Positions 3,316-20,481 of a stretch of DNA of 28,725 nt are shown piece by piece. Below the pieces are notes generated by a model. It made no database searches. It worked only from the letters and a program-made list of their open reading frames with translations, and had not been told where the DNA came from. Made by a program: the position numbers and the translations under genes. Each line of letters begins with the position of its first letter. The first letter of the stretch is position 1. The DNA comes from a virus: IMG/VR virus record IMGVR_UViG_3300007734_000547, positions 1 through 28,725 of that record. One strand, written 5' to 3'.

Positions 3316-3810
3316 TTGGATTTAAAAAAAATAGTTGAGCAAAGATTACAAAACGCTATTTCTAAAATTCAAGAGAACCTTGAAACAACAGGAACAAACG
3401 CAAGTAAGAGAACGAGCCAAAGTTTACGCTTAGAGTCGTCAGACTTTGGATTTATTATTTATGGCCGGAGAGCTTTCGCGACTGTTGAGACCGGACGAAT
3501 GGCCGGAGGTATCCCAAAAGGATTTAACGAAATAATTAAACAATGGATTATTGACAAGGGAGTGTCAGTAACTCAAATTCCCTATAAAAGAAAAGAGTCC
3601 GAGAATTGGCGTCCTAAATATACAACAGCGGAGAGGAGTTTAATCTTAGCGGCCGGAGCTATTTCGTTTACGATCAAAAAAAGCGGGACGTCTTTATTTA
3701 GAAAGGGAGGACGAAACGATATTTTTTCAAATGTATTTAACGAAGCACTCCCCGACATAAAAAAAGATATACAGATCGAAATAATTAAACAAATTAAACT
3801 AACTTTATAG
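3316..3810 (+). CDS. HK97 gp10-like head-tail or tail completion protein (TTG start)
   Basis: A 164-residue basic protein. The segment ATVETGRMAGGIPKGFNEI followed by IKQWIIDKGVS (about residues 56-86) matches the style of the HK97 gp10 neck/tail-completion family, in which an ETGR...P motif precedes a short IxxW helix. A role in joining tail to head is therefore likely, and the position just before the tape measure gene agrees. The start is TTG, directly after the upstream TAA (TAATTG). The first in-frame Met is around residue 62, inside the conserved part, so the TTG start is needed. The tape measure ATG follows its stop by 1 bp. Family assignment is by motif only. Confidence 0.65.
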   Translation: MDLKKIVEQRLQNAISKIQENLETTGTNASKRTSQSLRLESSDFGFIIYGRRAFATVETGRMAGGIPKGFNEIIKQWIIDKGVSVTQIPYKRKESENWRPKYTTAERSLILAAGAISFTIKKSGTSLFRKGGRNDIFSNVFNEALPDIKKDIQIEIIKQIKLTL

Positions 3811-3811
3811 C

Positions 3812-6697
3812 ATGGATAGCAAAGAGCAAATATTACTAGAGATCGTAGTCTCTAACGACGCGGCCACGCAAGCGATATATGAGAGTCAAAAATCTATAGA
3901 CAAATTAAAACAGTCTCAGTCAGAGCTAACGACCGAATTTAAAAAGGGATCGATCACTTCCGAGGAGTACAGCAAAAAAAGCACGGCCGTAAAAGTCGCC
4001 ATCGCTCAACAAAATGAAGTTATAAGATTAAACGAGAAAGAGCTTAAAAATAATATTAAAAGCCAACAGGATAACTCCGACTCTCTCGCGGCCCTTAGAG
4101 CTCAGTTAAGCAATAGTACAAAAGCTTACGATAATTTAAGCAAAGCGGAAAGAGAAAGCGCAAAAGGTCAGGATTTACAAAAAAATATTAGTGAGACTGT
4201 CGAAAAATTAAACGAAGCGGAACAAGCAACGGGCCGCTTTCAGCGTCAAGTAGGAAAATATCCGGAGCAAATGGGAGGAGCCGGAAAGGGCGTCCAACAA
4301 ATTACGGGATTTTTAGGAAAAATGGGAGATCAACTCGGAGTTACGGGATCTTTTGCCGGAGGTTTTTCTAATACATTAACTAAAGCCGCGTCTGTGATCG
4401 GAGGTTTCGGGGCTAAATCAGATTTAGCCGCTGAGTCGGCCGTTAATTTAACTAACAATATCTCCGGAGCCGGAGACGCTGTAAACGAGATAGAGGGTTT
4501 CGCAGGGAAAGCGAGCGGATCCTTAAACGGATTAAGCAAAGGAGCGGCTGTCGCAGGAGAGGCCACGGGAGGAGCTTTTAGCACGATCACAAAAGGAGCT
4601 TTAAATATGGGTAAAGCCTTTTTAAGTCCTCCTATTATAATAGTAACGGCTGTAGTATTAGCAATAATAGGAGCGATCAAATTATTAACTGAGGGGTTTA
4701 AAAAAAATGACTCCGCGAGTGAGAAGCTTTCCGAGTCTTTCGCGATATTCACTCCTATTTTAGACGCTATAGGATCTTTATTTACTGTAGTAGCTGAGGC
4801 TGTAGCGGATTTGGTTTTAGGTTTCTCGAAAGGGATCGCGGCCGCTGTCGATTTTGTAGCCGGTTTATTTGGAGTTGAGACGGGATTAAGCGCGGCCGCT
4901 GAGGAGGCCCGTAACTTAGTGAAAGCTCAGGACGACCTCGAGGAGTCGGAGCGTAATTTTACGGTAAACTCAGCGAAGCGAAATCTCGAGAGGACTAAAT
5001 TAATGGCCGAAGTCACGGATAAATTTAAAAACGACGCTAAGACTCGGATCGCATTATTAAAGGACGCCCTCGACTTAGATCGACAAAATTTAGTAGACGA
5101 GAAAAAAATCGCGGACGAAAAATTAAGGATTATTTTAAAAGTAGCCGAAAACGAAAACGATACTAGCGACGAGACAGCTAAAAAAATATCAGAAGCTCGA
5201 GCGGCTTCTTTAAACGCGGAAGCCAAATATTTCGACGGAGTAAAAGAGATTAATAAAAAACTCTCGAGCGCGGAGGAGGAGTTAGCCAATGAACAAAAGG
5301 CCCGTTTTGATGAACAAAAGGCCCGTTTTGAGACATGGAAAAAAAACAAAGACGATCAGATATCTAAAGAAAAATTATATCTCCATCAGTTAGAGGATTT
5401 AGTTACAGCCGAAATAAAAAACGACTTAGAGCGTCAAATTAAAGCCGAAAAAATAAGCACAGAGAGAGCTAACGCGGATTTAAAAGAGAAGTTAAAAACA
5501 GAAACAAATTTAACTAAAGACTCTCGGGCCGCTATTAACGATATAATCGTTTTAAATAACGAGAATTTAAGCGAAAAAATCGCGGAGCTTACGAGAAAGT
5601 CGAGCGAGGACGAGATTAAAAAAGAGATCGAGAAGCAACAACAAATTATTACGGCTAAAATTCAGTTAGCGACAAAAGGAAGCGACGAGGAGACTAATTT
5701 ATTAATCTCTAAATTAAAGCTTCAAAAATCTATAGAGCTGTCTAATGTAGATTTAACAGAAGTCGAGAAACTCGCTATCATTGACAAATACGACGCGCAG
5801 GAGATCGCATTAAGAGAGCAAAATTTAATTAATAAACAAAATTTAATTAGCGATTATTTAGACAAGGAATTTGAGTTAAAAATATTAAACGCTCAAAACT
5901 CCGGAGCCTTTGAGGACGAAACGGCCCGCCTCGAATTAGAAAGAGAAAGAGCTAAATCTGACGCCCTTATAAATATGGACGAGGAGACTAAGTCGGCCAT
6001 GTACGCGACGCAAGTCGATTACGAGATAGCAGTCGCTCAGAGTAAACAAAATATCGTAGACGCTGAAAATAGAGTTTTAGACGCTGAGATAAAAAATAGA
6101 GATACTTTCGTTATGAGTATGAAATCGATCTCCGGATCGTTAAACGTTTTATTAACTCAAATGTCAGAAGACAGTTACGAAGCGGCTCAGTTTGCTAAAT
6201 CTTTAGCTTTAGTCAACATAGGAATAGCTCTCGCTGAGGGTATCGCGGGCGTAGTAAAGACAGCCGCAAAGTCCACGACATGGTACGAAATGGCTGCGGC
6301 TATAGCGACGGGAGTCGTTTCTGTTACGTCGTCCATTTATAGCGCAAAAAAAGCGTTTGCTGAAACTCCGGAGCCTCGCAAGCCTAAGTTTGCAACAGGA
6401 GGACTAATTAACGGACGGGGAACGGGGACGAGCGACAGCATAGACGCGCGAGTTAGTAACGGAGAAAGTATTATTAACGCTAATAGTACGTCGATGTTTA
6501 CTCCTTTATTATCCTCTTTAAATCAGGCCGGAGGGGGCGTCGGTTTCGGGAGCCAACAAATAAACAGTCAATTACAAGGAGAGGAGATGTTAGCGAGGGC
6601 GTTCGCTAAAGGAGCCTCGATGTTACCTCCTCCCGTTTTAGATTTAAAAGAGTTTCATTTAGCGGACGATAGATTAACAACATTAAAAGGTTTATAA
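3812..6697 (+). CDS. Tape measure protein
   Basis: A 961-residue protein, the longest in the genome, with the usual tape measure build: Lys/Glu-rich coiled coils (about residues 15-140 and 370-790), a Gly/Ala-rich stretch at about 150-270, a hydrophobic segment at about 272-292 (SPPIIIVTAVVLAIIGAIKL), and a second Ala/Gly-rich hydrophobic zone at about 795-855. It sets tail length and probably takes part in DNA passage through the envelope. It lies between the gp10-like gene and the tail-tip genes, as in most siphophages. A perfect 21-bp tandem duplication at 5289-5330 adds one coiled-coil heptad. The start ATG is 1 bp after the previous TAG. Minus-strand open frames inside it are shadows. 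Confidence 0.92.
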   Translation: MDSKEQILLEIVVSNDAATQAIYESQKSIDKLKQSQSELTTEFKKGSITSEEYSKKSTAVKVAIAQQNEVIRLNEKELKNNIKSQQDNSDSLAALRAQLSNSTKAYDNLSKAERESAKGQDLQKNISETVEKLNEAEQATGRFQRQVGKYPEQMGGAGKGVQQITGFLGKMGDQLGVTGSFAGGFSNTLTKAASVIGGFGAKSDLAAESAVNLTNNISGAGDAVNEIEGFAGKASGSLNGLSKGAAVAGEATGGAFSTITKGALNMGKAFLSPPIIIVTAVVLAIIGAIKLLTEGFKKNDSASEKLSESFAIFTPILDAIGSLFTVVAEAVADLVLGFSKGIAAAVDFVAGLFGVETGLSAAAEEARNLVKAQDDLEESERNFTVNSAKRNLERTKLMAEVTDKFKNDAKTRIALLKDALDLDRQNLVDEKKIADEKLRIILKVAENENDTSDETAKKISEARAASLNAEAKYFDGVKEINKKLSSAEEELANEQKARFDEQKARFETWKKNKDDQISKEKLYLHQLEDLVTAEIKNDLERQIKAEKISTERANADLKEKLKTETNLTKDSRAAINDIIVLNNENLSEKIAELTRKSSEDEIKKEIEKQQQIITAKIQLATKGSDEETNLLISKLKLQKSIELSNVDLTEVEKLAIIDKYDAQEIALREQNLINKQNLISDYLDKEFELKILNAQNSGAFEDETARLELERERAKSDALINMDEETKSAMYATQVDYEIAVAQSKQNIVDAENRVLDAEIKNRDTFVMSMKSISGSLNVLLTQMSEDSYEAAQFAKSLALVNIGIALAEGIAGVVKTAAKSTTWYEMAAAIATGVVSVTSSIYSAKKAFAETPEPRKPKFATGGLINGRGTGTSDSIDARVSNGESIINANSTSMFTPLLSSLNQAGGGVGFGSQQINSQLQGEEMLARAFAKGASMLPPPVLDLKEFHLADDRLTTLKGL
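5289..5330 (+). repeat. 21-bp perfect tandem duplication in the tape measure gene
   Basis: The 21-base unit starting atgaacaaaaggcccg occurs twice in direct tandem at 5289-5309 and 5310-5330. It keeps frame and encodes NEQKARF then DEQKARF, one extra heptad in a predicted coiled coil. The absence of any mismatch suggests a young event. Confidence 0.95.
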
Positions 6698-8113: not shown

Positions 8114-9986
8114 ACTAAATTTTGTAATTGACGGGCAAAAAGTCGATATATCGGAGAGCGTAGACTTTACAAGAGTTTACAGAGGATTAGAAACTACAGA
8201 CGTTAAAAAAAATAACTATTCTCTGACGGTTAAATTTCCTTTTACTCCTGCTAACGACTTAGTTTTTAAGCGTACAAATTCACTGTCTTATAAATCGTCT
8301 TTCCCTTACGACGTCCATACGTGCGACGTTTCGAGTAACGGAGTAGTATTGATAAGTAAGGCTAAACTCGTTTTATTATCGACGACGGCTTTTTATGAGT
8401 GCGCGCTGACGTGGGATAACTCGGATTTGATCGGAGCTATTTTAAATAATCCTACTAAATTAGGCGTTTTTTTAGAGTCTTTCCCCGTTCTCGATTGGAA
8501 TTTAAATCACTCGTTAATGTCAAAAACATATACGACAGGGAAAGCGGACACTTACGGGTATTTGCTTTATAACGACGGAGGAGGAGACGTCGGGATTAGC
8601 TCGACAAAATATTATAGTTATCAGCACCCACTAATTAACTATAATTATTTATTAGGATTAATTTTCGATCAGTTAGGATTTACGCTGAGTATACCAACGG
8701 CAAAAAATGACTTTTTGCAGTCTTTACTAGTAAGGCCAAATAAGGAGCTAGATAATTATAATAATAACGTTTTCGAGTTTAACGTAGATTGTTTCGGACT
8801 TATATACATGTATAACAGCGCAGGAGCGTATTTGTTCCCTGTTGCGGAAAATACAGGGACGAGCCCTCGGACGCCTGCCATCGGAAATAATAGTTACTAT
8901 TTTAAATCATGGATCGACGCAACGGACGGAAAGGATAGTTTTTATTATCACTTTTCAGCTATACAACAAATTTACCGTTTTAAATCTTTTGCAAATAGCG
9001 CGAGTACTTTAGTGATCTCGAATTTTGTCGCAGGTGCCGGAGGCCGTGCGATATTAAAACAATGGAGCGCGATAACTCAGACGTGGTCTACTTTATTTAC
9101 GGTTACGGGAAACATGTCAGCTACTATAATTGCAGGGGAGGGGGATTGGTTCGGGTTTAGTACTTCGTTCGACGACGACACGTTTAAAGTAACTATAACA
9201 ACTTCTCCGGATCCTACGTATATTAACACTCCTAACGAGTTAAGGTTTCCCTCTTTATTCCACATTCCGACCTGTATCGACATGACTGTAGGAGAGTACG
9301 TTAAACAGGCTTTAGATATAACCTGTAGCGAATTGACTTACGATGTTAATAGTGATACTTACTCTTTCTCAGAGAGAACAAAGGAAAACGGCTCCGCTTA
9401 CGATATTACTAAAAATATAACAAGTATTAAGGATATAACATACGATACGAAATATATTTATAATAAATTAGCAAAAGAGAATTATTTTAAATACTTAAAC
9501 ACGTCTCCGATCGACGCTAATTTAATAAAATACGGATCTAACCCAAATTTAACAGCTACTTTAAACTTCATAGACTTATCTTTTAGTCCGTCAGATACTC
9601 AGTCAGGCGGCACATATGACGGAAACTGTGTCGCTATAGAGCACACTTTCGACAGCGGCCAAATATGGACGAGATACACGGAGCAACCTTTACACTTATT
9701 ATATAACGACGTCGCAAATAGCGAAGTATTTTTTAAAACTTCGCTTTTGTCTATGACTAATATATTCGATACTTTTTGGGCTCCTTATTGGGCCGATTTA
9801 GAGGCTCTCGTTTTGTCAGGGACGGCTCGTTTATTAAAAATAAATACAAATATAACAGACGTCGAATTTAAGCGCATAAACACGAAAGGGTTAGTATATG
9901 TTAAGACTTACGGGAAGTACTATGGTATTATCGAAGTAAATAAAAACGGAGATTTTGCTCAGTTTTTCCTTTTAGAATTATTTTAA
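8106..9986 (+). CDS. Tail-tip / baseplate hub-like protein
   Basis: A 626-residue protein and the last gene of the rightward arm. Residues 1-110 (VDISESVDFTRVYRGLE, then NNYSLTVKFPFTPANDLVF) look like a beta-sandwich hub N-terminus. The middle, about 150-390, is Tyr/Asn/Ser-rich and may be an inserted binding domain. The C-terminal half returns to short strands and ends with YGKYYGIIEVNKNGDFAQFF. The place two genes after the tape measure fits a tail-associated hub protein that the phage uses for adsorption. No peptidase or lysozyme motif was seen. Its stop codon overlaps the stop of the convergent glycosyltransferase gene. The function is inferred from position. Confidence 0.6.
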   Translation: MSKLNFVIDGQKVDISESVDFTRVYRGLETTDVKKNNYSLTVKFPFTPANDLVFKRTNSLSYKSSFPYDVHTCDVSSNGVVLISKAKLVLLSTTAFYECALTWDNSDLIGAILNNPTKLGVFLESFPVLDWNLNHSLMSKTYTTGKADTYGYLLYNDGGGDVGISSTKYYSYQHPLINYNYLLGLIFDQLGFTLSIPTAKNDFLQSLLVRPNKELDNYNNNVFEFNVDCFGLIYMYNSAGAYLFPVAENTGTSPRTPAIGNNSYYFKSWIDATDGKDSFYYHFSAIQQIYRFKSFANSASTLVISNFVAGAGGRAILKQWSAITQTWSTLFTVTGNMSATIIAGEGDWFGFSTSFDDDTFKVTITTSPDPTYINTPNELRFPSLFHIPTCIDMTVGEYVKQALDITCSELTYDVNSDTYSFSERTKENGSAYDITKNITSIKDITYDTKYIYNKLAKENYFKYLNTSPIDANLIKYGSNPNLTATLNFIDLSFSPSDTQSGGTYDGNCVAIEHTFDSGQIWTRYTEQPLHLLYNDVANSEVFFKTSLLSMTNIFDTFWAPYWADLEALVLSGTARLLKINTNITDVEFKRINTKGLVYVKTYGKYYGIIEVNKNGDFAQFFLLELF

Positions 9987-9996
9987 AAAAAATAAT
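9977..9996. terminator. Possible bidirectional AT-only terminator between convergent arms
   Basis: ATTATTTT at 9977-9984 pairs with AAAATAAT at 9989-9996 around an AAAA loop. Both convergent genes end inside the hairpin. The stem contains no G or C, so it is weak; the call rests mainly on position. Confidence 0.4.
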
Positions 9997-10666
9997 CTTT
10001 GTAGTCGTTTAAAACGGTCTCGTTATATTTCGTAACCGTTTTCGCGTTATCAGAATAGCCGTCTTTTTGATAACTAAAATGTCTTTTACTTATATAACAG
10101 TTTAAATTTAATCCGTACCAATGATCTACGGGCTGAGATCCTGGGTAGTTTAAAATTTTATCGTAAGCTCTTTCGCTGACTAAATACATTTGAAGTCCTG
10201 AGAATTTGTTAACCTTATCGAAATACAAATTTTCCGTTTTAAAGATCTGTCCGGAATAAATCCCGAATAAAATAACGTCGTAATCGTCCGGCAAATTTTG
10301 CATTAATGTATTAAAATACTCGAGAGCGTCTCCTCGAAATAAAATATCGTCCTCAAATATTAAGGCGTTTTTTTTAAATCGTTGAGCGGCTATCCTTACA
10401 GCGTTTTTATGAGCTTCTCTGACTCCGTGAGTCGTGTTTTCTAACTCTACTCCGTCAGATAAATAAATTCTCGAATTATCGTCTTTAAAAAACTTTTTTA
10501 TATTACTTTCTGACTCCGATCTCCTCTCTACTCGTTTAGGTAAATTAATTAATATTTTAATTATCTCTTCGTTTTTAGTTTCGTTTTCCATTTTATTAAC
10601 TAAATAATGTTTATAAATTATTGACTCAGCGGCCGGATTAAAAGCTACTAAAACTTTTTTAATCAT
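9983..10666 (-). CDS. Glycosyltransferase family 25-like protein
   Basis: A 227-residue protein resembling GT25 LPS-type glycosyltransferases: IKILINLPKRVERR at about 37-50 (the family's usual start, I-N-L-x-x-R-x-x-R), GVREAHKNAV at 81-90 and the metal-binding EDD motif in ALIFEDDILF (acidic residues 105-107). The motif layout suggests that the true domain begins near the internal Met26; the first 25 residues are extra and a downstream start is possible. GT25 enzymes transfer galactose or glucose from UDP-sugars. It is the last gene of the leftward operon and overlaps the preceding GT2-like gene by 8 bp. It may glycosylate virion proteins or change host surface sugars; the sequence does not decide between these. 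Confidence 0.78.
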   Translation of the reverse strand: MIKKVLVAFNPAAESIIYKHYLVNKMENETKNEEIIKILINLPKRVERRSESESNIKKFFKDDNSRIYLSDGVELENTTHGVREAHKNAVRIAAQRFKKNALIFEDDILFRGDALEYFNTLMQNLPDDYDVILFGIYSGQIFKTENLYFDKVNKFSGLQMYLVSERAYDKILNYPGSQPVDHWYGLNLNCYISKRHFSYQKDGYSDNAKTVTKYNETVLNDYKDYFF

Positions 10667-11357
10667 TTAAATTAAATTTATTATCGTTATATTTTTTATT
10701 CCAAATTCGAGCCTGTCCGTAAGTTAACGACTCTTTAACGTCAGCGTCTAAAGTCTTTAAAGTATTAGATCCGTTTTCTACGTGATTAACGATAGAAGTC
10801 GGAATTAAATAATGTTTAATCCCGTGCTCCTGTAATTGTTTAGCGTAAACGTCGTCGGAGCACCAAAAGGAAACGACCTCCGAAAGCCCTCCGATTTTTA
10901 GCCATAACTCACGCGTAAATACTAAGGCCCAACCTGAAACCTGACGCGCTATTTGATAGCCCTCAACAGGATTTTTACACGAAATAAATTCTCTCTGACT
11001 TGCTGAGGTTAAACTAATAGGAGACAGGCTTTCGATAGTATTTCCGACGTCTAATTTAACGATCTCAGAAAACCAATCGTCGTTAAAAATAACGTCATTA
11101 TTAAATACTCCTATTAACTCGCTGCCACATGTCATTATAGCATTATTTGAAAACTCATTATAATTAAATGGCTTATCAAAATGTAACGTCTTAACTCCTA
11201 ACTCCTCGTAATTAACGGACGGATTAGTTTCGACGATAATAATATTAAAAGCCGTGTTTAATTTCGACTCTTTAAGGGAGTTTATACAATTAATAGTTAA
11301 ATTGTAATGTTTGTCACTCTTTGCGAATGATAAAATAATAATGTCGATAATTTTCAT
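10659..11357 (-). CDS. Glycosyltransferase family 2-like protein
   Basis: A 232-residue GT-A-fold protein. It begins with IIDIIILSFAKS (first beta strand of the nucleotide-sugar fold), and VFNNDVIF at residues 84-91 takes the place of the DxD metal/nucleotide motif. WCSDDVYAKQL at about 164-174 resembles the region of the catalytic base. It should use a nucleotide-sugar donor in the cytoplasm. It lies 10 bp downstream of the lipoprotein gene and overlaps the GT25-like gene by 8 bp, so the two enzymes may act in sequence on one glycan. The NND variant in place of DxD is common in this family and need not mean loss of activity. Confidence 0.78.
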   Translation of the reverse strand: MKIIDIIILSFAKSDKHYNLTINCINSLKESKLNTAFNIIIVETNPSVNYEELGVKTLHFDKPFNYNEFSNNAIMTCGSELIGVFNNDVIFNDDWFSEIVKLDVGNTIESLSPISLTSASQREFISCKNPVEGYQIARQVSGWALVFTRELWLKIGGLSEVVSFWCSDDVYAKQLQEHGIKHYLIPTSIVNHVENGSNTLKTLDADVKESLTYGQARIWNKKYNDNKFNLND

Positions 11358-11367
11358 AGTGTTTTAT

Positions 11368-11568
11368 TTATTTTTTGTGATTTTTACAATTCCCTTTATG
11401 TCCTCCCCAACTCGCGCTCCCCGCTCTAAAATAAACGTATTCGCAACCGTCAAAAGTTAATATCTCGACGCGCTGTCCGTTTAAATATTCGTTTGTTTTT
11501 TCTGTTTTTAGCGTGTTATTACAGCCAATTAAAAAAGCCGTTACGCTTAATAAAATTATTTTTTTCAT
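11368..11568 (-). CDS. Small lipoprotein
   Basis: A 66-residue protein with an N-terminal lipoprotein signal: MKKIILLSVTAFLIGC, with lipobox LIGC and the lipidated Cys at residue 16. About 50 residues follow, with three more Cys (CEYVYF, a Gly-rich SASWGGHKGN stretch, then CKN) that could form a disulphide. It should be anchored in the inner or outer membrane. It sits in the glycosyltransferase block. Known phage lipoproteins of this size (Llp of T5, Cor of phi80-like phages) block receptors during infection, so superinfection exclusion is a reasonable guess, but there is no sequence similarity that I can point to. Confidence 0.7.
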   Translation of the reverse strand: MKKIILLSVTAFLIGCNNTLKTEKTNEYLNGQRVEILTFDGCEYVYFRAGSASWGGHKGNCKNHKK

Positions 11569-11573
11569 AGGTT

Positions 11574-11693
11574 TTACTTTTTAGATTTTTTTGATTTTTT
11601 ACGTTTTAACTTTGCTTTTTTAAAAGAGTCGATCTCTTTGTAAGCTGACAAAATTTGTTTATCAGTTTCTTTTTTGCTTTTTTCATTTTCCAT
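11574..11693 (-). CDS. Very small Lys-rich protein
   Basis: A 39-residue open frame that starts MENEKSKKETDKQ and ends in a run rich in Lys and Ser (KRKKSKKSKK). The ATG overlaps the stop of the upstream glycosyltransferase gene (TAATG), the coupling used elsewhere in this genome (11693, 20481, 20753, 23861). The start MENE/MENT is shared with two other early proteins here. The coupling and tight spacing support a real gene. The basic tail suggests nucleic-acid or membrane-surface contact; no function is assigned. Confidence 0.55.
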   Translation of the reverse strand: MENEKSKKETDKQILSAYKEIDSFKKAKLKRKKSKKSKK

Positions 11694-12286
11694 TATCTAA
11701 CTCTTTTATGTTTTAAATGTTGCTGAGTTTCCGTTGTTATTTGGTTGTAATGATATTCATAAAGGACCTTTAAAATGTCATATTCTTTTTTTATTTTAGG
11801 GGCTAAATCTTTACTAAACGCGCTATCCTCTCCGTATAAAATAGGTTGATAAGGAGTGTTAACACAAAACTCTCTCTTTATACACATAATATGATTAGGG
11901 AGTCTATGATAACTATCGTCTCTGTTAAAATCGTGCTTATGTTCAACGCTGTAATAACAAGGCTTAAAAGGAGATCCGTTTAGAGATACGTTAACTATAA
12001 AGTTAATAACGTCAGCTCCGTCGCAAATGTCAATAGCTTTTAATAATTCGGTTACATAGTCAGGAGATAATTTATCGTCATCGTCCACAAACGCGACATA
12101 ATCTCCCTGAGCCATGTTTACAAGGTCGTTTCGTTTAATTCCTAACATACGGGTTTTATTATCTACGACACAAATAACCTCAACGTCTAATTTATCATAA
12201 GTTTGATTATTTAACTCCTCCAAAATTAACGGGAGGAAAGTGTCTCGTCTGTTAAGTACAGAGCAAACTAAAATTGATAATTTCAT
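11693..12286 (-). CDS. Glycosyltransferase family 2 protein
   Basis: A 197-residue GT2 protein in the short single-domain form: MKLSILVCSVLNRRDTF at the N-terminus (nucleotide-sugar fold strand one, with the usual Arg after it), YDKLDVEVICVVDN at about 30-43, RNDLVNMAQGDYVAFVDDDD at 52-71 (the DxD site), and LYGEDSAFSKDL at about 155-166, where ED is the likely catalytic base. All key GT2 positions are present. It is the first gene of the distal block and has its own promoter candidate; the -7 box ends 4 bp before the ATG, so its mRNA may be leaderless. Likely partners are the two other glycosyltransferases downstream. Confidence 0.85.
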   Translation of the reverse strand: MKLSILVCSVLNRRDTFLPLILEELNNQTYDKLDVEVICVVDNKTRMLGIKRNDLVNMAQGDYVAFVDDDDKLSPDYVTELLKAIDICDGADVINFIVNVSLNGSPFKPCYYSVEHKHDFNRDDSYHRLPNHIMCIKREFCVNTPYQPILYGEDSAFSKDLAPKIKKEYDILKVLYEYHYNQITTETQQHLKHKRVR

Positions 12287-18923: not shown

Positions 18924-19058
18924 TCATTTTTTAAATTCAAATAGTGTTGAATCCACTTTTTTTTCAAGTGTAGAGTCTTTTAAATCGTTTGTTTCTTCCA
19001 ACAAAACAATAGACGGAGTTAAATTATTTTCATTTAAACCCTTTATCCAATGAACTTT
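18924..19058 (-). other. Open -1 frame extending the multiubiquitin-like gene
   Basis: Past the slippery stretch in the multiubiquitin-like gene the -1 frame is open for 44 codons: it reads KVHWIKGLNENNLTPSIV, then LLEETNDLKDSTLEKK and ends TLFEFKK before TGA at 18924-18926. It has no early ATG of its own in that frame. It would be expressed only by -1 frameshifting or is the remnant left by a one-base deletion. Confidence 0.4.
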
Positions 19059-19276
19059 TTTAAATCCACGTCGCAATGCTTCAGCTTAATATACAGACTG
19101 TAGCACTCTACCGGCATCTTTTCTGCCTTTTCGAGTATTTCTTGTCCTGATACGATGTGGTGTTCAAATACAAAGTCTTTTTCGTCGATCTTTACTTTGT
19201 ATGTTTTATCTTTTGGGATTTCTTTCCCTGCCTTTGAAAATTCAGCAATATCAATTGCTTGTTCTAAATTTTTCAT
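19043..19276 (-). CDS. Orphan multiubiquitin-type ubiquitin-like domain protein
   Basis: A 77-residue protein. Residues about 24-70 fit one domain of the multiubiquitin family: KTYKVKIDEKDFVFEHHIVS (first beta hairpin), GQEILEKAEKMPVECY (the helix, with the family's G-x-x-I-L pattern) and SLYIKLKHCDVDL (third strand). Family members are ubiquitin-like substrates in bacterial operons with E1, E2 and JAB partners, some of them antiphage systems. No such partner genes are present here. The frame stops early after DLKKFIG; GAT TTA AAA AAG just before the stop contains the slippery heptamer T TTA AAA, and the -1 frame stays open to 18924. It has no clear promoter. It may be a decoy or a decayed acquisition. 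Confidence 0.6.
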   Translation of the reverse strand: MKNLEQAIDIAEFSKAGKEIPKDKTYKVKIDEKDFVFEHHIVSGQEILEKAEKMPVECYSLYIKLKHCDVDLKKFIG

Positions 19277-19375
19277 TATGTTTATAATTAGAGGTTTTGT
19301 TAAAAATTAAATTTGTCATTCCATTACAGGAATAGTCATTCAGCACGTGATAAAAATCAGAGGTACAACAACTTA

Positions 19376-19397
19376 GATTTCTGTCTGACAGAAAATC
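19376..19397. promoter_or_regulatory. Palindrome, possible operator
   Basis: TTTCTGTC-T-GACAGAAA at 19378-19394 is a perfect 8-bp inverted repeat around one base; with one extra A it extends to GATTTCTGTC / GACAGAAAATC. It lies in a gene-free stretch between the small-RNA promoter and the multiubiquitin-like gene. The symmetry suits a dimeric repressor site. Confidence 0.4.
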
Positions 19398-19434
19398 ACT
19401 AATAAAATTCTTTAGGCGGGAAGGAGGTGGGATT

Positions 19435-19464
19435 TTATTATTCCAAAGAAATATTCTATCTTTG
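19435..19464 (+). promoter_or_regulatory. Promoter candidate for a small RNA
   Basis: TATCTTTG at 19457-19464 is a full match to the -7 box TAnnTTTG. TTA at 19435-19437, inside TTTTA, lies 19 bp upstream where TTG is expected, so the -33 is imperfect. A structured segment and a terminator follow immediately. Confidence 0.55.
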
Positions 19465-19467
19465 TAC

Positions 19468-19553
19468 TCGTAAACGAAAGGAGTGCGAATCCTGTTTACA
19501 AATTTGACTCTTATATCAAATAATAAAAAGCCAAGCCTCACCGCTTGGTTTTT
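19468..19553 (+). ncRNA. Candidate phage small RNA of about 85 nt
   Basis: Directly after the TATCTTTG box, GTAAAC (19470-19475) pairs with GTTTAC (19494-19499). AGGA (19479-19482) pairs with TCCT (19490-19493) and the 7-nt loop is GTGCGAA, with a GAA bulge on the 5' side. A 31-nt single-stranded A/T-rich stretch follows, then a terminator hairpin with a T-run ending at 19553. There is no plus-strand open frame in it. Promoter, structure and terminator in this order suggest a free-standing RNA. It is not a tRNA: there is no acceptor stem or anticodon arm. The target is unknown. Confidence 0.5.
19525..19553. terminator. Bidirectional intrinsic terminator
   Basis: CCAAGC (19531-19536) and GCTTGG (19543-19548) form a stem with loop CTCACC, flanked by AAAAAG on the left and TTTTT on the right. 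It can therefore end transcripts from both sides: the small RNA on the plus strand and the GIY-YIG fragment on the minus strand. Confidence 0.8.
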
Positions 19554-19693
19554 GCATTTTGAGCATTGCACTTGCTTTGTCTGCTTTTAATGTGATGGTA
19601 AAGCCTTTCTGTTATAGTTAGCTTTGTTCTGCCTATGTATCTAACTGTATTTGATACAGGACACACTAAGGCGTAAATTTTTAAAGTTTCCAT
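19538..19693 (-). CDS. Truncated GIY-YIG nuclease-like protein
   Basis: A 51-residue protein from the ATG at 19693 (an in-frame ATG at 19750 would add 19 unrelated-looking residues). IYALVCPVSNTVRYIGRT (residues 5-22) is the GIY-YIG opening, with Ile-Tyr in place of GIY and Tyr-Ile-Gly for YIG; TERLYHHIKSRQ holds the next conserved helix, with Arg and His. The family normally needs about 90 residues, including a metal-binding Glu and an Asn, and these are missing here. The stop codon lies inside the terminator hairpin. It is probably a decayed homing-type endonuclease or a fragment without nuclease activity. Confidence 0.6.
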   Translation of the reverse strand: METLKIYALVCPVSNTVRYIGRTKLTITERLYHHIKSRQSKCNAQNAKTKR

Positions 19694-19792
19694 TATAAAA
19701 AAATCCCTACTAAATAATGGCAGTCCAGCGTTACTGTGTAACTTAGGCATTATCTTTCGGGAAGTTTTAAAGTTCTTTTACTGACTGCGTGT

Positions 19793-19822
19793 TAAAGGTA
19801 CAAATAATCCGGAACATAGCAA
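19793..19822 (-). promoter_or_regulatory. Second leftward promoter candidate
   Basis: On the minus strand TTG (19822-19820) is followed by exactly 19 bp and TACCTTTA (19800-19793), one base off TAnnTTTG. It points at the GIY-YIG fragment and its transcript would end at the bidirectional terminator, about 240 bases later. Confidence 0.5.
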
Positions 19823-19829
19823 GTTTTCC

Positions 19830-19866
19830 AAATTAAATTAAGTTAAAATAATATTAGTTATATTTG
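19830..19866 (+). promoter_or_regulatory. Rightward promoter for the terminase operon
   Basis: TATATTTG at 19859-19866 is a full -7 box; the small terminase ATG follows after 4 bp, so the mRNA would be leaderless or nearly so. No TTG lies 19 bp upstream. AAATTAAATTAAGTTAA at 19830-19846 matches the 17-bp element at 16 of 17 bases, but is 12 bp from the box, not 6. Confidence 0.6.
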
Positions 19867-19870
19867 TGCT

Positions 19871-20341
19871 ATGACTACAGGACGACCGGAAAAATACACG
19901 GACGAGTTAGCTTTAAACATATTAACTCAAATCGCAACAACTCACAAAGGATTAAAGGCTATTTGTAAGGCTAACGACGTGGCTGTTAGCACGGTTTTAA
20001 TATGGTTAAGAGATAATAAGGAGTTTTCGTTATTATACGCGCGCGCTAAAGAGTCTCAGGCCGATCTTTTAGCTGACGAGATTTTAGCAATAGCTGACAG
20101 GGAAAGAGAGACGACGGAAACAACAACAACGGCCGACAGCTCAGGAGAGGAGACTAAAATCAAATCCGAGTTTACAACTAAAAAAGATAATATAGCTCGG
20201 GCCCGCTTACAGATAGATGCGCGAAAGTGGTTAGCGTCTAAACTTAAACCTAAAAAATACGGAGACACTCAACAGAGCGGATCCTCTGACGTCGCTCCGG
20301 TTTCTTTCGAAGACTTTATTAAAAAAATAGATAACGCGTAG
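19871..20341 (+). CDS. terS: Terminase small subunit
   Basis: A 156-residue protein: MTTGRPEKYTDELALNILTQ begins an N-terminal helix-turn-helix domain (about residues 8-52, with ICKANDVAVSTVLIWLRDN as the core). A coiled-coil oligomerisation segment follows (about 53-80, AKESQADLLADEILAIADRE), then an acidic Thr-rich linker and a C-terminal IDARKWLASKLKPKKYGD motif typical of phage small terminases of this group. It recognises the packaging site and loads the large subunit. Three genes downstream is the large terminase. The promoter box ends 4 bp before the ATG. GAC is used for 8 of 13 Asp codons, the usual core style. Confidence 0.85.
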   Translation: MTTGRPEKYTDELALNILTQIATTHKGLKAICKANDVAVSTVLIWLRDNKEFSLLYARAKESQADLLADEILAIADRERETTETTTTADSSGEETKIKSEFTTKKDNIARARLQIDARKWLASKLKPKKYGDTQQSGSSDVAPVSFEDFIKKIDNA

Positions 20342-20343
20342 CC

Positions 20344-20481
20344 ATGGCAAAATTAACAAAGGAGGAGTTATTGAATCAAAAGAAACTACTCGAGAAAAAA
20401 ATAAATATTATTAATGCAAAGCTCGAGATCCTCGAGAAGCCGGCCCCGATAGGATTTAAATATAAAAACAGAGTTATATAA
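20344..20481 (+). CDS. Small coiled-coil protein in the terminase operon
   Basis: A 45-residue open frame (starts MAKLTKEELLNQKKLLEKKI, ends PIGFKYKNRVI). About 30 residues are a Leu/Ile-heptad helix. It starts 2 bp after the small terminase stop and its stop overlaps the next ATG (TAATG), strong evidence for translation. It may bind one of the terminase proteins; the function is unknown. Confidence 0.65.
   Translation: MAKLTKEELLNQKKLLEKKINIINAKLEILEKPAPIGFKYKNRVI

Follow-up and report, generated by a model that had tools for sequence, protein, structure and literature searches.

The closest described systems to the locus analysed here are the bacterial ISG15-like (Bil) and Bub-type ubiquitin-like (UBL) systems, represented by structures of BilA (8u38 and 9d5b) and of BubA and multi-ubiquitin filament proteins (9ea8, 9d59 and 9cd2), which belong to the same β-grasp family. 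A passage of PMC11364771, citing Hor et al. 2024 on Bil, states that one UBL system attaches its UBL to the central tail fibre of the phage; for Bub operons, phage protection had not been shown at the time of PMC13373217. BubA-type proteins are multi-domain and complete, whereas the phage protein described here is a fragment of one multiubiquitin (MUB) domain. The comparison with BilA is equally uneven: BilA is matched by intact bacterial relatives of the phage protein, while the phage protein itself yielded no significant match in a single-sequence search of the PDB and lacks strands β4–β5 and the C-terminus.

Phage genome and host

The window, that is, the whole stretch of DNA analysed, comprises 28,725 bp and was taken as a complete phage genome, as the original prediction had claimed, since a direct terminal repeat of 127 bp was detected. 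TAnnTTTG promoter elements are enriched in it (51 versus 31.9 ± 5.8, a count matched by none of 100 shuffles), and many Bacteroides and Flavobacterium phages are found among the matches of its terminase, so that these sequence signals point to a probable host among the Bacteroidota. At 9983–12286 on the minus strand, a cluster of three genes is oriented against the tail genes and is conserved in related phages; two of these genes match glycosyltransferase family 2, one strongly and one weakly, and the third is similar.

Family assignment of the 77-codon open reading frame

An open reading frame (ORF) of 77 codons spans positions 19276–19043 on the minus strand and encodes MKNLEQAIDIAEFSKAGKEIPKDKTYKVKIDEKDFVFEHHIVSGQEILEKAEKMPVECYSLYIKLKHCDVDLKKFIG. 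Its start codon is intact and codons 1–69 contain no internal stop. The Pfam family Multi_ubiq (PF14452) was matched with E = 0.0096 and 16.5 bits over profile positions 1–40 of 69; as the gathering cut-off of 24.5 bits was not reached and positions 41–69 were unmatched, this match is marginal when taken alone. The protein found no matches in PHROGs, PADLOC or NCBIfam, nor in a first scan of genome contigs. A tblastn search of plasmids (E up to 10) returned ten places, six of them annotated as 'multiubiquitin domain-containing protein', with a best E of 5e-4. Among Bacteroidota genomes, the best relative (G1124) is 57% identical over residues 5–71 (E = 2e-21) and a second (G192) is 48% identical over the same 67 residues (E = 1e-18), the similarity including the K-F/L-K-G/H-C-D stretch that ends β3. 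Against a custom profile built from 40 related domains, with the phage sequence left out, the 77-residue protein scored 78.8 bits. Since these relatives and the 40-domain profile lift the match well above chance, the assignment of codons 1–69 (19276–19070, minus strand), N-terminal leader included, to the MUB family is secure at the level of sequence; the segment corresponds to the leader, β1, β2, helix α1 and β3 of domain 1. The multiubiquitin match of the original prediction is thus real homology, established through the relatives and the custom profile, and Pfam by itself would have left it below threshold.

Multiubiquitin operons of the Bacteroidota

The intact closest relatives each comprise two MUB domains and are 162–183 residues long. 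In the four loci read around them (L088 in G1124, L054 in G192, L089 in G593 and L090 in G494), a complete two-domain MUB gene is followed by one for a protein of 116–134 residues and then by one for a ThiF protein of 472–479 residues, with HTH and/or ImmA/IrrE genes alongside. The short protein, which has no Pfam match, was read as E2-like by eye and from its position. The ThiF (E1) domain was recognised by Pfam in the G1124 and G192 copies, and an N-terminal JAMM motif (HSHPFPGWQGMSxxD) was identified by eye. The arrangement amounts to a conserved three-gene Bacteroidota cassette of a two-domain MUB protein, an E2-like protein and a JAMM–ThiF fusion. By sequence, the G1124 protein matches Methylobacterium Ubl-BilA (8u38 and 9d5b), the multi-ubiquitin protein 9cd2 and Citrobacter BubA (9ea8). 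Single-domain MUB proteins of 95–112 residues, all ending in ...DQTEG, were also observed in Bacteroidota genomes (L071, L072, L074, L075 and L078).

The Bacteroidota proteins possess complete domains 1 and 2 and are encoded next to genes for an E2-like protein and an E1, whereas the phage carries 69 homologous codons and no partner. A profile search of the phage genome detected neither ThiF (PF00899) nor Prok-JAB (PF14464), and the description of the domain as an orphan accordingly holds with respect to the E1 and the JAB/JAMM protease.

Breakpoint and predicted structure

At the DNA level, the phage resembles the G1124 gene (73% over 105 bp, E = 3e-12) up to position 19070, the last base of codon 69, and the protein similarity to the relatives stops at residues 69–71. 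In a model of the intact Pontibacter domain, β1 spans residues 21–25, β2 28–32, the helix 39–45, β3 54–60, β4 65–68 and β5 81–88; the breakpoint, placed on this model, is the residue preceding β4. The phage ORF, which terminates in VDLKKFIG, lacks strands β4 and β5, the whole of domain 2 and the C-terminal end at which conjugation would take place, and no single-base change or indel and no alternative frame restores the domain. The claim that the domain is truncated and lacks its normal C-terminus was therefore confirmed. The last eight codons, together with the stop (19069–19043, minus strand), have no supported homology, as the VDLKKFIG end shows no significant similarity and raises the profile score by only 1.9 bits; they may be a VDL..GIERF remnant left after the loss of β4. 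A clean 27-nt in-frame deletion of β4, joining CD to VDL, was attractive by eye and was rejected, as shuffles do not support it (p = 0.50).

Alignments of the same five proteins were used for the AlphaFold2 models of the phage protein and of the Pontibacter domain. The latter reached a pLDDT of about 91 over its core and matched 8u38, 9cd2, 9ea8, 9d59 and 9d5b by fold. The 77 residues of the phage protein gave a poorly predicted fold, with a mean pLDDT of 55.8 and a value of about 37 over the last 18 residues. Loss of folding is suggested by this result, which, coming from a five-sequence model, does not prove that the phage protein is unfolded.

Codon usage, constraint and distribution among phages

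The synonymous codon score of codons 1–68 is lower than in any of 362 overlapping windows taken from genes of the phage itself, which suggests a foreign origin of the fragment; the G1124 gene likewise scores poorly under the phage codon table. Differences between the phage and G1124 over the three codon positions number 16, 13 and 39 and are thus concentrated at the third. Together with the 69 uninterrupted codons, this bias suggests that the segment was under constraint during most of its evolution, a period that may include time in the phage; part of the constraint may predate capture. The counts assigned to the phage branch (8/12/21, with 13 amino-acid changes in 63) are not clearly neutral.

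No MUB gene was found in related phage contigs, whose terminases are 57–59% identical. Since a counterpart of the leftward operon next to the terminase persists in a single one of these contigs (L013/L093), the lack of MUB carries weight chiefly for that contig and for two contigs of about 30 kb. Searches of IMG/VR with the 77-residue protein and two MUB alignments, and of GenBank phages, revealed no second copy of the fragment.

A complete Multi_ubiq domain was observed in an uncultured 485-kb phage (LR745208.1, L091), where positions 3563–4282 encode a coiled-coil-like protein of 239 residues. It scores 30.4 bits with Pfam, above the cut-off, and 45 bits with the custom profile, and ends in ...TLPRSQTGG, hence in Gly-Gly; an identical protein is present in IMG/VR (L092). 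The encoding gene is flanked by an ATP-grasp R2K gene immediately upstream and by a YpsA/SLOG gene downstream, and no ThiF was found in the 485-kb record. This protein is a better candidate than the fragment in the window for a working phage ubiquitin-like protein.

Surroundings of the fragment

Directly upstream of the MUB fragment, at 19538–19750 on the minus strand, lies a fragment of a GIY-YIG nuclease of 70 residues that stops mid-domain. It matches PF01541 with E = 1.6e-4 and 22.3 bits (cut-off 22.6) over profile positions 4–42 of 78, and is missing in four relatives. An intrinsic-terminator-like hairpin (19531–19548, minus strand) separates the two fragments. The minus strand contains no TAnnTTTG element from 19276 to 20347; promoters deviating from the consensus could exist. 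The nearest leftward promoter-like site, of Bacteroidota type (TACATTTG, 18863–18832, minus strand), is downstream and not upstream of the MUB fragment and faces the leftward operon. A Bacteroidota -7-like element (TATCTTTG, 19457–19464, plus strand) faces right, away from the fragment.

Origin of the fragment and alternative explanations

We consider it probable that the locus is a piece of a MUB gene that was captured and truncated, and most likely a non-functional relic. The phage would have acquired the 5' part of a BilA/BubA-like gene for a two-domain multiubiquitin protein from a Bacteroidota bacterium, and the captured gene would have been cut after codon 69 through deletion or illegitimate joining. 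Such an event would have retained the leader, β1–β2, helix α1 and β3 of domain 1, at the expense of β4–β5, domain 2 and the C-terminus, and would have left the piece in a variable intergenic stretch, beside the GIY-YIG fragment as a second cut-off gene.

Alternatively, the captured fragment might have been put to a different use as a small phage protein, with VDLKKFIG as its new C-terminus. The 77 open codons and the bias of the differences towards third positions are consistent with this proposal, which we regard as rather unlikely in view of the foreign codon usage, the weak fold prediction and the failure to find relatives in phages. Also unlikely is a decoy or dominant-negative role, in which the truncated domain would block conjugation in a host Bil/Bub-type system by binding its E1, its E2 or its MUB filaments. 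Its homology to domain 1 of UBLs encoded next to an E2-like protein and an E1, its open frame and intact start codon, the homology of the intact relatives to known UBL structures, and the tail-fibre conjugation stated in the passage of PMC11364771 that cites Hor et al. 2024 all speak for such a role; however, the domain lacks two of its five core strands and is poorly predicted as a fold, no consensus promoter is present and related phages lack the gene. That the phage expresses the half-domain as a viral dominant-negative UBL, which would poison the host system by binding E1/E2 or by capping MUB filaments, is decidedly unlikely.

Slippery heptamer and -1 frame

The original prediction had the domain end just past a slippery heptamer and offered a programmed frameshift or a lost base as the cause. 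A TTTAAAA heptamer does lie in frame (T TTA AAA) at 19064–19058 on the minus strand, overlapping AAAAAAG, but the homology stops at 19070 and the heptamer is 6 nt beyond that point. The -1 frame overlaps the 77-codon ORF and is open for 44 codons, to 18924, as had been stated; counted from a TTG, it extends over 50 codons (19076–18924, minus strand). In local shuffles, an open run of 44 codons arises with a probability of about 0.02 in one given frame and of 6% in any of three, and the codon score of the frame lies at the border between coding and off-frame windows.

The heptamer and this open run are what would favour a programmed -1 frameshift at TTTAAAA, yielding a product of 117 residues besides that of 77. 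We consider it very improbable, as the -1 tail is unlike any UBL half or second domain. Against a profile built for the C-terminal half that is missing, the tail scored -1.0 bits, a value reached by 34% of shuffles (p = 0.34); the full profile scored the -1-joined product no better than joined shuffles, and the Pfam match of that product still ended at residue 65. When aligned as DNA with two relatives, the tail did no better than chance (p about 0.6 with dinucleotide shuffles). A Smith–Waterman alignment of the tail segment LEETNDLKDSTLEK with LEEVVDLKNPGIEK of L061 gave p = 0.01 and was treated as chance, given that the other four relatives gave p of at least 0.10 and the profile nothing; the likeness of an LTP motif in the tail to LTPNQIL of domain 2 was not significant either. 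No significant stimulatory RNA fold was found downstream of the heptamer (z = -0.73), and no homologous or conserved -1-frame product was detected. TTTAAAA is, moreover, common in this AT-rich genome, with 72 copies in the window versus 52 expected from shuffles, and behind the other in-frame heptamers in phage genes the -1 frame stays open for no more than 10 codons, so that these copies are presumably unused. The -1 open frame is probably due to chance. Alignment with homologues shows that the homology does not continue across the slippery site, which contradicts the frameshift part of the prediction. Given the dissimilarity of the -1 tail to the missing half and the lack of a restoring frame, the truncation is explained by no programmed frameshift and by no loss of a base. 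A sequencing or assembly error, through which one lost base in the six-A run near the stop would conceal an intact gene, can practically be dismissed, as the homology ends before that run, in DNA and in all frames, and no single indel restores the domain.

Implications

The locus cautions that, in AT-rich phage genomes, a slippery heptamer near a stop codon speaks only weakly for frameshifting. An active fragment would constitute a viral antagonist of a ubiquitin-like system, of which a limited literature search found no description. If it is the captured relic that we favour, the fragment documents gene capture in a minor way. The finding suggests that parts of ubiquitin-like conjugation operons enter phage genomes from bacteria, in which some of these operons act against phages.
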